A stretch of DNA of 58,969 nt, taken from Stenotrophomonas maltophilia R551-3. GTDB lineage: Bacteria > Pseudomonadota > Gammaproteobacteria > Xanthomonadales > Xanthomonadaceae. The stretch spans positions 4,515,001-4,573,969 of the forward strand of contig NC_011071.1 of the NCBI RefSeq assembly GCF_000020665.1. The letters are read 5' to 3'. Positions 50,657 through 58,289 of this stretch are shown here, piece by piece; within the stretch, counting starts at the first letter, position 1; the number at the start of each line of letters is the position of its first letter. The translations under genes were made by a program, and so were the position numbers. Below the pieces are notes generated by a model, which saw only the letters and a list, made by a program, of their open reading frames with translations, was not told the DNA's origin and searched no databases.

Positions 50657-50669
50657 CGGAGGAGTGTTC

Positions 50670-51758
50670 ATGCAGAAGTCGATATATGTGCCGATTCTGA
50701 AATGGCGACAAGGTGAGTACCTCGCGGTAGGTCGCACAAGCGAGACCATCAAGGACTGGATGTATCCCCTGTTCGAGATTCCCGTCGAGCAGTGGGATTT
50801 CGAAAACGAGATGCCCGCCAAGTCCCTCGACGATCATCTGAAGAACGTTGGCAAGCGCCTGGCGACCAACTGGAAGAAACGCCCTTGCCTGTTCGATTCG
50901 CCGTATCTTGGCGGAGACGACACCGTAGCAAACGGTGACCATCACCTCACACACATATTCGACCTTGCCCGATCGGCCGGCTGCCAGGTCATTCCGGTCA
51001 CAGGCATCGGTAGGCATCTGCAGTATCAGCAGGCGGTTGCCAGCATCGTCGCCCAGGATGGCCGGGGCTGCGGCCTGCGTCTGCTGCCCGACGACGTTGA
51101 GGGAGATCCTGCTGCAAGGATCGACGGTTTGTTGCGCCTGCTCAGCGTGACCCCCGACCAGGTCGACCTCGTACTGGATAGCAGCAGCGATGTCGCAGCG
51201 GCCCCTGCGCTGCAGGCGGGTCTCTGGCAGACATGGATCGCGGCAGTGCCGCACGCTGGCCAATGGAGGTCGTTCACCGTGGCCGGCGGCAGTTTCCCAT
51301 CCAGCCTGAGCCCTTCAGCGAACTATCGGCCCCATGGTGATGTTCCCCGCCGGGAATGGCGCGCGTACACCCGGCTGGTCGCCGCTGGGCAACAGCCTTG
51401 GTTCGGTGACTACGGATGTGCGTCGCCGCAGACCGAGATGATGGACCCGCGGCTCTTTGATCCAAACGCCAAGATCAAGTACACGATCGATGATCATTGG
51501 AGGGTGGTCGTTGGAACCCAGGTCAAGCGCAACGGCCGCGACCAGTATCGCGACCTGTGCAGGCATCTGGTCACCGACGTCCCGGTGGTCTTCATGGGAC
51601 GCGGTTATAGCACGGGTGATGCCTACATCGAGGATTGCGCCACCAGCGCGGCCAGTACCGGCGGCAGCTCGACCTGGCCGACGGTGGCCACCAGCCATCA
51701 CCTGACTAAAGTTGTTCGCGACCTCGCCAGGCTGTACGGCGCTTCAACTGTTCCCTGA
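50670..51758 (+). CDS. Beta-family protein (T4 beta-like, PF14350 type)
   Basis: The 362-aa soluble protein begins MQKSIYVPILKWRQGEYLAV and contains MYPLFEIPVEQW, HLTHIFDLARSAGCQVIPVTGIG, REWRAYTRLVAAGQQPWFGDYGC and YTIDDHWRVVVGTQVKRNGRDQY. These match the beta-protein family found in phages and bacterial accessory islands, whose function is unknown. The ATG at 50670 has an excellent GGAGGAG ribosome site 5 nt upstream. Base composition is less GC-rich than the surrounding housekeeping genes. Its last 53 nt overlap, on the opposite strand, the end of the sce7726-like gene. Such pairs recur elsewhere (sce7725/sce7726-type), which suggests joint function. Confidence 0.75.
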   Translation: MQKSIYVPILKWRQGEYLAVGRTSETIKDWMYPLFEIPVEQWDFENEMPAKSLDDHLKNVGKRLATNWKKRPCLFDSPYLGGDDTVANGDHHLTHIFDLARSAGCQVIPVTGIGRHLQYQQAVASIVAQDGRGCGLRLLPDDVEGDPAARIDGLLRLLSVTPDQVDLVLDSSSDVAAAPALQAGLWQTWIAAVPHAGQWRSFTVAGGSFPSSLSPSANYRPHGDVPRREWRAYTRLVAAGQQPWFGDYGCASPQTEMMDPRLFDPNAKIKYTIDDHWRVVVGTQVKRNGRDQYRDLCRHLVTDVPVVFMGRGYSTGDAYIEDCATSAASTGGSSTWPTVATSHHLTKVVRDLARLYGASTVP

Positions 51759-52293
51759 CCTGCGCGCGGATTTCCGCAAGACTGTAGAGCTCCGACAGAC
51801 GTTCGCATAGCGCTGCGCGGTTACCGCGCAGCGCTGCTTTTTCAAGCGTCCGCCCGCCGATCAGAGCAGAAAGTTCATCGCGCCAGAGGAGTGCAGCGAC
51901 AGCCGTCGCGCTCACCGATGGATTGAGCCTTGCAGGCCGCAGCAGTTCCAGTCTCACTGCGTTACGCACTCCACGTGATGCCAGCCTGACCCCCCACCAG
52001 GCAGGCAGCGTTTCCAGCGCGTGATCCAGGTGGCGCTGGCCCACGACGATTGTCGCCTTATCGAGAACATCGGAGTAGAACTGCTGCTGCAGTGGCAGTC
52101 TCCGCAGCGTGTCGACATCACTCTTGATCTCGTAGCCGTGAAGGTGGCCATTGATGACACAGACATCGACCCGGCAGGCCCCGCGGGCAAGCCCCAATTC
52201 CTCCACCACGAGGGTGTTCGGATTGGCGACATGCTCAGCAATGACCTTGCCCAGCAGAGCTGATCGCACGTCACTGTCGGTTATCGGGTTCAT
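51706..52293 (-). CDS. sce7726-family protein, putative PD-(D/E)XK nuclease
   Basis: The 195-aa protein has the sce7726 layout: NTLVVEELGLARGACRVDVCV then GHLHGYEIKSDVDTLRRLPLQ. The E31/E32, D43 and E55-I56-K57 residues fit a PD-(D/E)XK nuclease core. The C-terminal half is helical with a winged-helix-like feel (WRDELSALIGG, RLSELYSLAEIRAQV). No catalytic activity has been assigned to the family that I know of. It converges on the beta-protein gene with a 53-nt 3' overlap. The start at 52293 has no obvious ribosome site. Confidence 0.75.
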   Translation of the reverse strand: MNPITDSDVRSALLGKVIAEHVANPNTLVVEELGLARGACRVDVCVINGHLHGYEIKSDVDTLRRLPLQQQFYSDVLDKATIVVGQRHLDHALETLPAWWGVRLASRGVRNAVRLELLRPARLNPSVSATAVAALLWRDELSALIGGRTLEKAALRGNRAALCERLSELYSLAEIRAQVREQLKRRTAWRGREQL

Positions 52294-52363
52294 GGCGGGA
52301 TGGTATCAAGGAGGTGTCGCGCCCCGGGTTGAAACCACGTGGCATCGATTGTGGTGATGTCGA

Positions 52364-52392
52364 GGGTCAGAGCCCCTTTGGGGATCTGACCC
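52364..52392. repeat. GGGTCAGAG hairpin repeat
   Basis: The inverted repeat GGGTCAGAGCCCC / GGGGATCTGACCC with a TTT loop begins 71 nt after the sce7726-family start and ends 7 nt before the mnmE 3' end. It may act as the mnmE terminator on the minus strand. Confidence 0.7.
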
Positions 52393-52398
52393 TGTGGA

Positions 52399-53748
52399 CT
52401 ACTTCCCAATGCAGAAACTGGAGAAGATCCTTCCCAGCAGGTCATCGGCACTCATCTGCCCGGTGATCTCGCCCAGCGCGTCGTGGGCCAGCCGCAGTTC
52501 TTCGGCGGCCAGCTCCAGGTGTTCGTGGGCCAGCTCGCCATCGGCGCGCTGCGCGTGTTCCTGCGCACGCTCGATTGCATCCACATGCCGCGTGCGCGCG
52601 GAGAACTCGCCGTCCACCTGCTCGCCCGCCCCGGCCGAGGCAATCGAACGCAGGCGCGCGTGCAGATCTTCGAGTCCGGCGCCGGTGGCGGCGGAAACGA
52701 ACACGCGATCCGGATCGTCCAGTGCCGGCAGCGCCGTCAGCAGGTCTGACTTGTTGTGGATGTAGACCTTGTGCGGAACCGCCGCCACGGCATCGCCCAG
52801 CGCCGCTTCACCCGCAGCCGGATCGCGCGCATCCAGCACGATCAACGCCAGGTCGGTGCGCTCGATCTCCACATGGGCGCGGCGCATGCCTTCGCGTTCG
52901 ATGGCATCGCCGCCGTCGCGCAGGCCGGCGGTATCGACCAGGGTCAGTTCCAGGCCATCCAGGCGGATGGTCTCGCGCAGGGTGTCGCGGGTGGTGCCGG
53001 CAATGTCGGTGACGATGGCGCGCTCGCTGCCGGCCAGGGCATTGAGCAATGAACTCTTGCCCGCATTGGGCGGCCCGATCAGCACTGCATGCAGGCCATC
53101 GCGCAGGCGACGGCCGCGTTCGGCATCGCGGCGCAGCAGGGCCAGGTCACTGCGCGCCTGCTTCAGCCCACGCCGTACCTGCGCCCCACCAAGCGTATCC
53201 AGCGGTTCGTCGGCGAAGTCGATGGCCGCTTCCACGTGGATGCGCAGCAGCACCAACTGCTCGACCACCGCGTCGATGCGGCGGGAGAACACGCCGTCCA
53301 GCGAACGGCGTGCAGCGCGTGCGGCGCGGTTGTCACCCGCGGCGATCAGGTCGGCGATGGCCTCAGCCTGGGCCAGGTCGAGCTTGCCGTTGAGGAACGC
53401 GCGTTCGCTGAACTCACCCGGGCGCGCCTGACGCGCACCGAGCGCGATGCAGCGCGCGACCAGTTGCTGCAGCAGCACCGGGCTGCCATGGCCCTGCAGT
53501 TCCACCACTTCTTCGCCGGTGAAGCTGTTCGGCGCCGGGAACCACAGCACGATGCCATCATCAATGACCTCGCCGTCGGCATCGCGCAGGCGTGCGTAAT
53601 GCGCATGGCGCGGGCGCAGCGCAGGCGCACCCAATGCGTTGGCGATGGCCGCAGCGCGCGGACCGGACAGGCGCAGCAGACCGACGCCACCCGCGCCGGG
53701 TGCGCTGGCGATGGCCACGATGGTGTCGGTGCGGATCGCGTCATTCAT
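52399..53748 (-). CDS. mnmE: tRNA modification GTPase MnmE
   Basis: The 449-aa protein has the N-terminal folate-binding domain (about 1-120) and helical domain. The inserted G domain carries G1 GPPNAGKSS (225-233), DIAGTTRDT (248-256), DTAGLRD (272-278) and NKSDL. The C-terminal motif CIGK (446-449) holds the essential cysteine. With MnmG it installs the 5-carboxymethylaminomethyl group on wobble uridine in tRNA. It ends the oriC-proximal block rpmH-rnpA-yidC-(lipoprotein)-mnmE and starts 3 nt after the lipoprotein gene. Confidence 0.96.
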
Positions 53749-53751
53749 GGC

Positions 53752-56424
53752 TCAGAGTTTCTCCAGCTGCGCGCGCGCCTGTGCTGCGCCGCTGCCCTGC
53801 GGCTGCAGCGCAAGGTAGGTGGTGTAAGCCTGTTTGGCCTTGGCCTTGTCGCCCGCGTTGAAGTAGGCATCGCCAAGATTCAGATAGGCCACCGCACGCG
53901 ACGGGTCGATCTTCAGCGTGTTCTCCAGCCAGCGCGCAGCTTCGGCATAGCGTTGCTGGCGGTAGTAGACAAAGCCCAGGTTGTTGGCGGCCTGGGCGAA
54001 GTCCGGGCGCAGCTTCAACGCTTCGGTGAACTGCGCGACGGCTTCGTCGTACTGCTTCTCGCGGTACAGCTGCAGGCCACGGTCGTTGGCCTGCTGCGCG
54101 CGCTGGCGGTCCGAGGCCGGGCCGGCAGTGGGCACCACCAGCTTGGCCTTGCCGCCCTGCAGGTCGGCCACGGTCACTGGTGCCTGAGCACCCTTGGCTT
54201 CGCTGGCGGCATCCACCTTGTTGTTCAGCGCGATCGCATCGGCAGTCAGCTGGCGCGTGTCGGCATTGAGGAATTCCTGGCTGTCCGGCACCTGGAACAC
54301 GAACTCGCCGCCCTGCGAACCGGGCAGGCTGCCGAAGGCCGGTGTCTGGTGTGAAACCGCGGACACCGCCGGCGCCACGTAGGCGGCCAGTTCGGTGCCG
54401 GTGATCAAGCCATCGCCATTGAGGTCCCCCTTGCCGGCCAGCGCCTGCAGCAGCACCCAGGTGAACACCGAATGGCCGTTCGGGCCGGCATCGGCCACCT
54501 GCTGGTCGGCACCGCCGGCGGTCAGCATCTGCCGCGCGCTGCGGCGTGCGTTCTCGCGCAGGAACGACGACGAAGACGGGCCACCGCGGGTCAGGCCCAG
54601 GCCGCTGTAGCAGGCATCCATCACGAACATCACATGCTTGGCCTGCATGCTCTCGGCGATGTTCTGGATGTCGGTCATCGCGATGGCGTCGGTGGCAAAT
54701 TCCTTCGGATCCGAATCGACCGGGATGATGTAGCCGAGATCGCGCCCGGAGGCGAGCTGGCGGGTCGCGCCATGGCCGGCGAAGAACACGAACACGCGGT
54801 CGTTCTTGCCGGTGCGGTCATCGGCCAGGCGGTCGTGGAAGGCGGCCAGGATGTTGTTGCGGGTGGCCTGCTCGTTCTTCAGCACGATCACCTGCGAGGA
54901 CGGGAAGCCGAACCGCCCGGTCAGGGTATCGGCCACCGCCTGTGCGTCATGGCTGGCGTACTCCAGCTTCGGCCACTTGGCGTAGGTGTCGATGCCGACC
55001 ACGATCGCCCACGACTTCTCGTAGCCGGTGGTGACGGTGGCGGCACGGGCCTCGCCCTTGCGCGCGCGGGCGACAGTGAATTCACGGCCATTCCAGCCGG
55101 CGAACTGGTAGCCGTCGGCAATCAGCCGGTCGAGAATCTGCGGCAGCGCCTTCACCGCCCGGTCGTGGATGTCGTGGAACAGGATGATGCCGCGCTGTTC
55201 CTTGTTCACCTGGTCGAGCACGCGCTGCACGATCGACTCCGGCACCGGGTCGGCCCAGTCCATCGAGTCGATGTTCCACATGATCGACTTCAGTCCGGCC
55301 TCGTTGAGCAGCTGCAGGCCTTCGGCATTGCGCGCGCCGTACGGGAAGCGGAACAACGGCGCGCGCTTGCTGTCGACATCCTTCAGCAGCGTATCGGTGT
55401 CGAGCACCTGCTGGCGCAGCGCATCGCCGGTGGTGCGCGACAGCTGGGCGTGGGTCAGGCTGTGGTTGCCGACCGCATAGCCTTCTTCCATCAGGTTGCG
55501 GCTGATCTTCGCCATCGGCCCGAGGCTGACTTTGCCATCACTCTCGACCTTGCCGAGGTTGCGGCCGACTTCGAAGAACACGCCCGGTACGTCGTAGCGC
55601 TTGAGGATCGCCACCACTTCATCGGTGTAGGCCTTGTGCGGGCCATCGTCGAAGGTCAGCACCACGGTCTTGGCGGGCAGGTCGCGGCCGAAGATCTCGC
55701 GGTCGCTGTCCTTCATCGACATCGGGTACGGCTCGATCACCCCGTAGTCGCGCAGGATCGCTTCGCGGCTGTAATCCTTGTGCAGGTGGGCGATGTAGTC
55801 GTCCCACTTCTCGCGCTTCAGCTCGATGGCGCGGGTGCGCTCGAAGCGGCTGAAGATGCGGGTCAGTTCCTGGTTGTAGTTGCGTTCGATCTCGTCGAGC
55901 GCCTCCAGGTCCTCGCCGATGCGCTGGTGCAGCTTCACCGCCGGCAGCGACGAATCGGTACCGACCCGCTCGTGCAGATCACGCAGTACTTCGCGGAAGG
56001 CCAGGCGATCGGCATCGAACAGTTCCGGTGCGGATTCGATGTAATCCAGCACCGTGCCGAGGGTGGCGAAGCGCTGCGGGCTGGAACCGCGCAGCAGGGT
56101 GTCGAACTGCGCGGCGATGACCGTGCGTTGTTCCAGGCCATCGTGGAACAGCTGCTGGCCCACACGCGTGGAGGTGCCGCGGTCGGCGGCCGACTGCTGT
56201 TCTTCGTCGGCCAGCAGCACGATGATCCGGCGGTAGCCATCCAGCTGCTTCTGCAGCGCAGCCAGCAACGGCGCGGCGGCAGGATCGGCGGCGGCCGCGG
56301 CCTGTGCGCTGGGCTGGGTCACGCCGGTTACCGGTGCCTTCGCGTCCTTGTCGCCACAGCCGGCAACGACCAGGGTCAACAACAGCGAGGGCAGGAACAG
56401 GCGGAACGACGACGCACGCGGCAT
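53752..56424 (-). CDS. Lipoprotein fusing NodB deacetylase, caspase-like (C14) and TPR domains
   Basis: The 890-aa protein has a lipobox (VAGC, Cys23) and a helical region (about 50-230). A polysaccharide deacetylase domain (about 250-445) carries TFDDGP (257-262), NHSLTH (320-325), RFPYG (359-363) and LFHDIH (415-420). A caspase-like C14 domain (about 468-700) has the dyad His551 (FFAGHGA) and Cys605 (DACYSG) and an EF-hand-like loop (D667-E678). Three TPRs (about 775-885) follow. All metal and catalytic residues appear intact. It should sit in the periplasm or outer membrane. Both activities on one lipidated chain are unusual. It lies between yidC and mnmE with 3 nt to mnmE. Confidence 0.9.
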   Translation of the reverse strand: MPRASSFRLFLPSLLLTLVVAGCGDKDAKAPVTGVTQPSAQAAAAADPAAAPLLAALQKQLDGYRRIIVLLADEEQQSAADRGTSTRVGQQLFHDGLEQRTVIAAQFDTLLRGSSPQRFATLGTVLDYIESAPELFDADRLAFREVLRDLHERVGTDSSLPAVKLHQRIGEDLEALDEIERNYNQELTRIFSRFERTRAIELKREKWDDYIAHLHKDYSREAILRDYGVIEPYPMSMKDSDREIFGRDLPAKTVVLTFDDGPHKAYTDEVVAILKRYDVPGVFFEVGRNLGKVESDGKVSLGPMAKISRNLMEEGYAVGNHSLTHAQLSRTTGDALRQQVLDTDTLLKDVDSKRAPLFRFPYGARNAEGLQLLNEAGLKSIMWNIDSMDWADPVPESIVQRVLDQVNKEQRGIILFHDIHDRAVKALPQILDRLIADGYQFAGWNGREFTVARARKGEARAATVTTGYEKSWAIVVGIDTYAKWPKLEYASHDAQAVADTLTGRFGFPSSQVIVLKNEQATRNNILAAFHDRLADDRTGKNDRVFVFFAGHGATRQLASGRDLGYIIPVDSDPKEFATDAIAMTDIQNIAESMQAKHVMFVMDACYSGLGLTRGGPSSSSFLRENARRSARQMLTAGGADQQVADAGPNGHSVFTWVLLQALAGKGDLNGDGLITGTELAAYVAPAVSAVSHQTPAFGSLPGSQGGEFVFQVPDSQEFLNADTRQLTADAIALNNKVDAASEAKGAQAPVTVADLQGGKAKLVVPTAGPASDRQRAQQANDRGLQLYREKQYDEAVAQFTEALKLRPDFAQAANNLGFVYYRQQRYAEAARWLENTLKIDPSRAVAYLNLGDAYFNAGDKAKAKQAYTTYLALQPQGSGAAQARAQLEKL

Positions 56425-56478
56425 GGCGGACTCGATGGATGGAGGAACGGTGTGCCGGCGATTCTAACGCCGGATGCG

Positions 56479-56504
56479 AAAAGCCCGCCTTGCGGCGGGC
56501 TTTT
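56479..56504 (-). terminator. Rho-independent terminator of yidC
   Basis: The stem GCCCGCC / GGCGGGC has a 4-nt loop and is flanked by AAAA and TTTT, so it works in either direction. It lies 70 nt beyond the yidC stop and 55 nt upstream of the lipoprotein start, so the lipoprotein probably has its own promoter. Confidence 0.85.
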
Positions 56505-56524
56505 GCTGGTCGGTCAGGCCAGGA

Positions 56525-56549
56525 GCAGTCGACTAACAGTCGACTCTAC
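56525..56549 (-). repeat. GTAG-headed SMAG-like hairpin
   Basis: On the minus strand a GTAG head is followed by AGTCGACT / AGTCGACT, an 8-bp stem around a 3-nt loop. It lies between the yidC stop and its terminator. Confidence 0.7.
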
Positions 56550-56573
56550 CAAGCAGGTGACCTGCCGGTCGGA

Positions 56574-58289
56574 TTACTTCTTTTTGACCGGGGCCGGTGC
56601 GGTGGTGGCCGGAACCGGCTCGCCGCCATGGCGCTTGGTCATCCACCACTGCTGCAGCAGGCCCAGGCCGCCGTTGACCACCCAGTACAGGACCAGGCCG
56701 GACGGCATGAAGGCCATCATGACGCCGAACACCAGCGGCATGAACTGCATCATCTTCTGCTGCATCGGGTCCATGCCCGGTGCCGGGGTCAGCTTCTGGG
56801 TGAACCACATCACCGCCACGTTGATCACCGGCAGGATGAAGTACGGGTCGCGTGCGGTCAGGTCCTGGATCCAGCCGAACCAGGGCGCCTGGCGCAGTTC
56901 GACCGATTCCACCAGCACCCAGTACAGCGCGAAGAAGATCGGCATCTGGATGAGGATCGGCAGGCAGCCGCCCATCGGGTTGATCTTTTCCTTCTTGTAC
57001 AGCTCCATCATCGCGGTCTGGAACTTCTGGCGGTCATCGCCATAGCGTTCCTTCAGCTGCGCGATGCGCGGCTGGAAGCGACGCATCTTGGCGCCACTCT
57101 TGTACTGGGTCGCCGACAGCGGGTACAGCACCAGCTTCAGCAGCACCACCAGGCCGACGATCGCCCAGCCCCAGTTGCCAACCAGCTTGTGCACCTGGTT
57201 CAGCACCCAGAACAGGCCCTGGCCGATCACCGCCATCATCGAGAAGCGGCTGTAGTCGACCACGCGGTCCAGGCCCGGCACGTCTTCCTTGGCGATCAGG
57301 TTGACCAGCTTCGGGCCGACCCACAGGCGGGCTTCGGTGCTGGTGGACTGGCCCGGGGCCACGGTGAAGGCCGGGCCACGCGCTTCGATCAGGTCACGAC
57401 CGGCCACCTGCGACAGCACGTAGTGTGCGGTCTGGTCCTTCTGCGGGATCCAGGCGGTGAAGAAGTGGTGCTGCAGCATCGCCAGCCAGCCGCCGGTGAT
57501 GTTCTGGTTCAGCGTGCCGTCTTCCAGGTAGTCCTTGAACGCACGACGCTGGTACTTCTTGTCGTTGTCGTACCAGGTGGCGCCGTTGAAGCTGAAGGAA
57601 TCCGGGTTGGTCATGCTCCGCGACAGGATGGTCGGGGTGCGGTCCAGGGTGCGGTAGACATAGCCGTTCCAAGGAGCGGCGCCGGTGTTGCTGACTTCAT
57701 CCTTGAAGCGCACGGCATACTCGTTGCGCGAGACGGTCAGCGTGCGCTTGATGGTCACGCCGCTGTCGGCGGTCCACACAAACGGGATCTGCAGCTCGTT
57801 CTGGCCCTTGGCCAGCACGAAGTCCTTGGTGTCACCGACCAGCTTGAAGCCGTCGGCACCCGGCACCGGGGTGTTCTTGTCTTCACTGGCCCAGCCACTG
57901 ATCGCGCTGTACGGATGCGCGGGGTCTTCGGTCAGCAGGCGCACCGGCGGGCTGCCTTCGTCCTTGGTCTGCGGGAACTGCAGCAGCTCGGCGTCGAGCA
58001 CGCGGCCGCCATCGAGCACCAGGCGCAGCACGTCGGTGGTGACGGTCACGCGCTGGCTGGCCGGCGTGGCACTGGCCTGGGCCTGCACTGCGGCCTGGCC
58101 CGGGGCGCCCGGGACCTGCGCGTTGGGTACGCTGCCCGGGGTCGCGCCCGGAACACTCTGTGCAGCGGCCGGAGCCGACGTGGTCGTCGGTGCCGGGGTC
58201 GGGGCAGCCTTTTCGCGGCTCCACTCCATCCACAGCAGCACGGCCACCATCAGCCAGGCAAAAATAAGGAATACGCGGGTCTGGTTCAT
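56574..58289 (-). CDS. yidC: Membrane protein insertase YidC
   Basis: The 571-aa insertase has an N-terminal membrane helix (about 5-22), a large periplasmic P1 domain (about 60-340) and the C-terminal five-helix core: [62 protein letters not shown], and [21 protein letters not shown]. It inserts and folds inner-membrane proteins alone or with SecYEG. The Lys-rich tail aids ribosome contact. Its ATG shares one base with the rnpA stop codon (TGATG). No yidD lies between rnpA and yidC. Confidence 0.96.

Follow-up and report, generated by a model that had tools for sequence, protein, structure and literature searches.

Is a polysaccharide deacetylase joined to a caspase-type protease on one lipoprotein a real gene product, and what could the two enzymes do together? 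The question is raised by an 890-residue open reading frame (ORF; 53752-56424, minus strand, ATG to TGA) of Stenotrophomonas maltophilia R551-3, located in a stretch of 58,969 nucleotides (NC_011071.1, positions 4,515,001 to 4,573,969; hereafter the window) that forms the end of the 4.57-Mb chromosome. The original prediction had recognised in this ORF a lipobox, an intact NodB site, an intact His/Cys dyad of the caspase type, a 12-residue EF-hand-like loop within the protease part and C-terminal tetratricopeptide repeats (TPRs), and had placed the gene between yidC and mnmE; the motif, domain and coordinate data given below bear out all of these elements. The combination of deacetylase and protease, which had been thought novel, has been in print since 2012, when the 'Xanthomonas-type metacaspase' (polysaccharide deacetylase, metacaspase and TPR) was described (Asplund-Samuelsson et al. 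2012, PMC3501461; this and the other papers cited by number are represented here by extracts). The additions made here are an invariant EF-hand-type loop, a predicted conflict of specificity, a swap of the membrane anchor and a survey of empty sites. As a whole, with a probability of roughly 0.42, the product may be a periplasm-facing, membrane-anchored two-enzyme protein comprising a CE4 deacetylase acting on an envelope glycan, a Ca2+-requiring orthocaspase cleaving after Arg/Lys and a TPR docking module. The elements of the gene are as follows.

56356..56424, minus strand: signal sequence with lipobox (residues 1-23; C23 is the predicted lipidated cysteine), from the sequence and a cysteine column kept in 40 of 47 aligned rows
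55747..56289, minus strand: N-terminal all-helical domain, about residues 46-226, without a Pfam match or an informative fold match
55090..55683, minus strand: CE4/NodB polysaccharide deacetylase domain (residues 248-445), five motifs intact, from Pfam, motifs, alignment and fold search
54286..55029, minus strand: C14 caspase-fold protease domain (residues 466-713), from Pfam, structure model and fold search
54772..54774, minus strand: catalytic His551 (FFAGHG), from the sequence and 47 of 47 rows
54610..54612, minus strand: catalytic Cys605 (VMDACYSG), from the sequence and 47 of 47 rows
54391..54426, minus strand: EF-hand-type loop DLNGDGLITGTE (residues 667-678), flanked on either side by a helix, from alignment, shuffles and structure model
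53758..54111, minus strand: C-terminal TPR array, about residues 772-889, from Pfam and structure model

The 890-residue protein matches PF01522 at residues 248-379 (E 5.4e-26), PF00656 at 471-667 (E 8.6e-22) and several TPR models over residues 781-888, and the predicted folds of the CE4, protease and TPR parts are supported by computation. The gene is a genuine fusion: an uninterrupted single frame was found in 87 of 92 loci besides the window's own (some of them perhaps the same strain under two handles), which rules out a sequencing join of two separate genes, and the domain order recurs in Xanthomonadaceae and Betaproteobacteria. One further locus (L047) ends at a contig edge. The frame appears broken or shortened in the remaining four, where the gene may be dispensable: G092 (L015/L016) and L076, which are perhaps one strain, stop near residue 802, the N-terminal part of L088 lies off the main frame, and L094 is shortened. 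With these four and L047 omitted, 88 rows were reduced under 92% identity to an alignment of 47 (the window protein and 46 others), in which D259, D260, H321, H325, R359, P361, Y362, D386, D389, W390, H417, H420, H551 and C605 never vary; the catalytic residues of both domains are thus conserved, as the original prediction required. A further alignment (46 rows), which includes more distant proteins, again showed the tested residues to be invariant, together with D493, D603, R613, R628 and R631.

The protein resembles the Xanthomonas-type metacaspase in its domain order, His/Cys dyad, trmE/mnmE neighbour and predicted operon, and members of that group have been described from Xanthomonas, Stenotrophomonas and Xylella (PMC3501461). 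The loop noted here sets it apart from the published account, in whose main text the terms 'EF-hand' and 'calcium' are absent; nor do the extracts of that paper mention a lipobox, a helical N-terminal domain, betaproteobacterial members or an exchange of anchors.

The loop reads D667-LNGDGLITGT-E678 and lies inside the caspase fold, flanked in the AlphaFold2 model by helices 653-665 and 676-690 at a local predicted local distance difference test (pLDDT) score of about 70, so that a helix-loop-helix is present. When the residues of the protein were shuffled 20,000 times, an EF-type pattern arose in 28 cases. The residues at ligand positions 1, 3, 5, 9 and 12 (D667, N669, D671, T675 and E678) are invariant in the 47-row alignment and in the broader one (46/46), while the glycine at loop position 6 (residue 672) is kept in 46/47 and 39/46 rows, respectively. 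Among 240 listed full-length relatives, namely the top 120 from 2,188 matches and the top 120 from 1,722, the pattern is found in 238; the exceptions are P0162, a row of the broader alignment that has the ligands, and P0163.

A loop special to the fusion was ruled out. A search with the caspase part gave 517 proteins; of the 120 listed, many of which are gene fragments, 108 have the pattern, and the carriers include stand-alone caspases with signal-peptide-like N-termini. In a set of 28 more distant caspases (27 of 30 loci, after three from Stenotrophomonas were dropped, plus L126), 6 have the pattern at the equivalent alignment position, unlike the majority. The best 30 loci of a PF00656 search showed the pattern in none of the printed ORFs, one locus (L117) giving no ORF. 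As judged from these sequences, the loop is a feature of the caspase part, not of the fusion. Orthocaspases have been described as p10-less enzymes with calcium-independent activation (PMC5756287); an EF-hand motif has been mentioned in seven archaeal orthocaspases (PMC6426788), so the pairing of EF motifs with caspases has precedents. In the open-access literature searched, an invariant EF-hand-type loop was nowhere found described for the Xanthomonas-type metacaspase family. Since a calcium-type loop is strictly conserved, calcium may be a requirement of the protease. Gating of the protease by calcium or by a peptide, as originally proposed, is possible, and Ca2+ binding is putative.

One alternative is that the loop holds an ion permanently and serves only to stabilise the fold; instead of being gated, the protease would then be constitutively active against misfolded or unwanted proteins of the envelope. 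In its favour, a loop facing the periplasm is expected to be calcium-loaded as a rule, orthocaspases are described as calcium-independent (PMC5756287), and 22 of the 28 distant caspases lack the loop pattern at this place, so the caspase fold can do without it. The invariance of all five side-chain ligands is, however, more than a dispensable loop would need, and we regard a purely structural ion as rather unlikely.

The preferred reading, a two-enzyme envelope protein, also involves the deacetylase part. The NodB motifs of the window protein are T257FDDGPH, H321SLTH, R359FPYG, D386SMDW and H417DIHD. The metal-site residues D259 and D260 of motif 1 (Asp-Asp) and H321 and H325 of motif 2 (His-x3-His) are identical in all 47 rows, as are the key residues of motifs 3 to 5 (RxPY, DxxDW and LxHDxH), and PF01522 scores above its cut-off; one cluster (P0006) has TFDDGTH as motif 1. 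By sequence the domain is a member of the CE4/NodB-homology deacetylases, and de-N-acetylase activity is predicted. It shares the CE4 fold and motifs with the peptidoglycan deacetylases PgdA, PdaC and Bd3279, which to our knowledge lack a protease domain.

CE4 enzymes serve peptidoglycan and exopolysaccharide alike, and proteins of exopolysaccharide export can contain TPRs. It could therefore be argued that an exported polysaccharide of the poly-GlcNAc or capsule type is the substrate of the deacetylase, with the TPR and caspase parts aiding assembly, and PgaB does appear, far below cut-off, among the NCBIfam matches. The motifs nevertheless run in the order 1-5, unlike those of the circularly permuted PgaB type, and none of 10 neighbouring ORFs scanned with Pfam (2 unmatched, 1 of weak content) encodes a glycosyltransferase or export protein. 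Nor was a recurrent cluster of such genes found in 14 loci outside the Xanthomonadaceae, most of whose neighbouring ORFs carry no identification. A role in exopolysaccharide modification thus appears distinctly unlikely.

The protease part of the proposed envelope protein has the His/Cys dyad (H551 and C605) in a p20 fold, as expected of C14 enzymes, with a pLDDT of about 59 around C605. In its C14 fold, dyad and acidic S1-type residues it resembles orthocaspases (MaOC1), metacaspases and the MALT1 paracaspase, but unlike them it is exported and joined to a CE4 domain and TPRs. D493 and D603, invariant in 46/46 rows, align at the sequence level with two acids of the yeast metacaspase. In that enzyme these acids presumably line the S1 pocket. 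Since D493 and D603 would give an acidic, metacaspase-like pocket, cleavage of DEVD (Asp at P1) is not expected, and the protease is predicted to cleave after Arg/Lys. Characterised non-caspase C14 enzymes prefer Arg/Lys (PMC5756287), so the DEVD-type activity of Xanthomonas is not what the fusion protein should display. R613, R628 and R631, all in a low-confidence stretch after C605, might be self-processing sites, which is speculation. Self-release of the deacetylase by cutting of the linker between the NodB and caspase parts was rejected as a general mechanism.

This predicted specificity bears on the claims of programmed cell death in Xanthomonas, for which DEVD-cleaving activity is the basis. 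The fusion protein might be the executioner of such a caspase-like death, stress freeing the caspase part to cleave proteins after Asp. Its homologue from X. campestris pv. glycines (GI 88792532) has been called a programmed-cell-death metacaspase and cross-reacts with caspase antibodies (PMC3501461), and DEVD-type activity has been measured in Xanthomonas cells (PMC4006831). Against this stand the acidic S1 residues; an exported and anchored protein should also not reach cytosolic targets, and the extracts of PMC4006831 name no gene for the activity. Moreover, the frame appears broken or shortened in the four loci above and 105 of 119 genomes of the family have no match at E 1e-30. These data make an executioner role very unlikely, and suggest that the fusion protein is not responsible for the DEVD-cleaving activity of Xanthomonas.

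The location assumed for the two-enzyme protein follows from its N-terminus. The lipobox LVVAGC occupies residues 18-23, and its pattern was passed by 119 of the best 120 closest relatives listed. The cysteine is missing from the C23 column in 7 of 47 rows, namely a Fluviicoccus metagenome-assembled genome (MAG) and six betaproteobacteria, all outside the Xanthomonadaceae. Among 120 relatives listed for a Scleromatobacter query, 44 have a lipobox, 72 a transmembrane-like N-terminus and 4 neither; these calls were made by simple rules, and P0216 resembles a false lipobox. The predicted conserved trait is thus a membrane tether holding the enzymes outside the cytoplasm. The original prediction had placed the protein at the cell surface, which is disfavoured: because the lipobox is exchanged for a transmembrane-like N-terminus in 72 of the 120 distant relatives, the protein more likely faces the periplasm, on the peptidoglycan side.

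The helical domain behind the anchor gave no significant relatives in sequence searches (lowest E values 0.48 and 0.23). In Bd3279, too, a helical domain precedes CE4, but fold searches do not support a relationship of the two N-terminal domains. That the protein is an enzyme against other cells, in predation or fratricide like the Bdellovibrio peptidoglycan deacetylase Bd3279 with its helical N-terminal cap, is hardly credible: Bd3279 (5jp6) is Foldseek match 2 of the whole model, but the N-terminal domain alone has no fold match at E 0.001, Bd3279 is absent from the rows listed for it, and the fusion protein carries a membrane anchor. A plasmid of Caballeronia sp. M1242 (L127, 1892-3271) encodes a NodB protein without a caspase part, whose stretch before NodB matches the query from residue 191; it is possibly a caspase-free relative matching the end of the helical domain. 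Among plasmid relatives, six records were found, of which none covers 80% of the query.

In the preferred reading, the CE4 domain of the anchored protein would remove N-acetyl groups from an envelope glycan, probably peptidoglycan, while the orthocaspase domain would cut after Arg/Lys. A Ca2+ ion in the EF-hand-type loop would be needed for the folding or action of the protease, which would become competent only once exported into a Ca-rich compartment, and the TPRs would dock a partner or substrate protein. Several observations weigh against this proposal. No EF-hand family match was obtained at E 0.1 in the Pfam search of the 890-residue protein, and the element is for this reason named an EF-hand-type loop and not a member of that family; a single EF loop is also uncommon and could have a structural role. 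At least one of 46 rows has no Arg/Lys in the NodB-caspase linker, which speaks against general self-cleavage at that place, and the predicted template modelling score of 0.38 means that no arrangement of domains can be read from the AlphaFold2 model. A consensus scan found no sigma-70-type promoter in 52300-56700. The 14 loci outside the Xanthomonadaceae showed no neighbour naming a pathway, the only cluster present in more than two of them being a histidine-kinase-type gene (4/14); most of the ORFs clustered lack an identification, and in L075 and L091 an opposite-strand frame was picked over the gene itself. Finally, no functional assay of such a fusion protein was found in the open-access literature searched.

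The loop and the acidic S1 residues pose two questions: whether some bacterial orthocaspases form a calcium-dependent class, and whether the fusion protein can be the source of the Xanthomonas DEVD activity. For the first, the sequences suggest an affirmative answer, for the second a negative one. A further step, unlikely as it stands and put forward tentatively, is that this exported caspase branch, with an EF-hand switch after the catalytic Cys, comprises calcium-dependent orthocaspases active outside the cytosol only, and that the switch would control where and when the tethered peptidoglycan deacetylase acts, via cleavage of a TPR-docked envelope protein.

The following elements adjoin the fusion gene.

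52399-53748: mnmE
56479-56504, minus strand: hairpin of terminator type between yidC and the fusion gene, with a stem of 11 bp, a loop of 4 nt and four T, from sequence and fold
56574-58289: yidC

The stop codon of the fusion gene lies 3 nt before the start of mnmE (53749-53751, minus strand), and the two genes are for this reason probably co-transcribed; a two-gene operon with trmE/mnmE has been predicted for Xanthomonas and Stenotrophomonas (PMC3501461). The 3-nt gap was found in 36 of 65 measured loci, the others ranging from a 4-nt overlap to 462 nt. The proposal that the gene is independently expressed may therefore hold towards yidC, where the hairpin lies, but not towards mnmE. The hairpin was not among the matches of a consensus terminator scan.

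The order yidC-gene-mnmE was found in 75 of the 76 loci with both neighbours in the stretch, 65 by rule and 10 by eye, the latter being cases in which the stop-to-stop frame runs into yidC. The exception is L067 (S. koreensis), where the gene is found behind mnmE, either because the locus was rearranged or because the gene entered a second time. Four loci have one of the neighbours and 14 neither. The gene is present at E 1e-30 in 14 of 119 genomes of the family, representing 6 of 54 genera, and in all 14 yidC and mnmE are 2,780-3,428 nt apart. Of the 105 genomes without it, 99 have both neighbours on one contig and 6 could not be measured; the distance is at most 1,180 nt in 97 (the exceptions being 7,168 and 92,470), so genomes that lack the gene mostly have its two neighbours next to each other. 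In the R551-3 genome there is no second copy, the sole other match being weak and NodB-only (residues 251-439, E 4e-6).

A class-wide sample yielded matches at E 1e-60 in 3 of 369 genomes, namely R551-3 itself and two others of its genus. The gene also occurs, at 53-64% identity over the best segment, in Undibacterium, Duganella, Roseateles, Paucibacter, Pelomonas, Uliginosibacterium, Scleromatobacter and the Fluviicoccus MAG. The Xanthomonadaceae rows form one group of the tree (100/100), which includes one 'Azonexus' MAG. This copy (L049), nested within the group, and that of a second Azonexus MAG (L051) are 80-81% identical to the Stenotrophomonas protein and have neither yidC nor mnmE adjoining; they represent either recent transfer or mis-binned contigs. 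Close copies assigned to Knufia, Bacillus subtilis and Rhizopus (P0070, P0099, P0306, P0334 and L060) show 89-99% identity and probably reflect Stenotrophomonas contamination of the assemblies.

Elsewhere in the window (50664-52293), two convergent genes overlap: a Beta_protein gene (PF14350, plus strand) extends over the end of an sce7726-family gene (NF033832, minus strand). The latter was found in 4 of 94 loci (L022, L027, L028 and L077), many of which end before that region, and the two genes may be a strain-variable pair behind mnmE.
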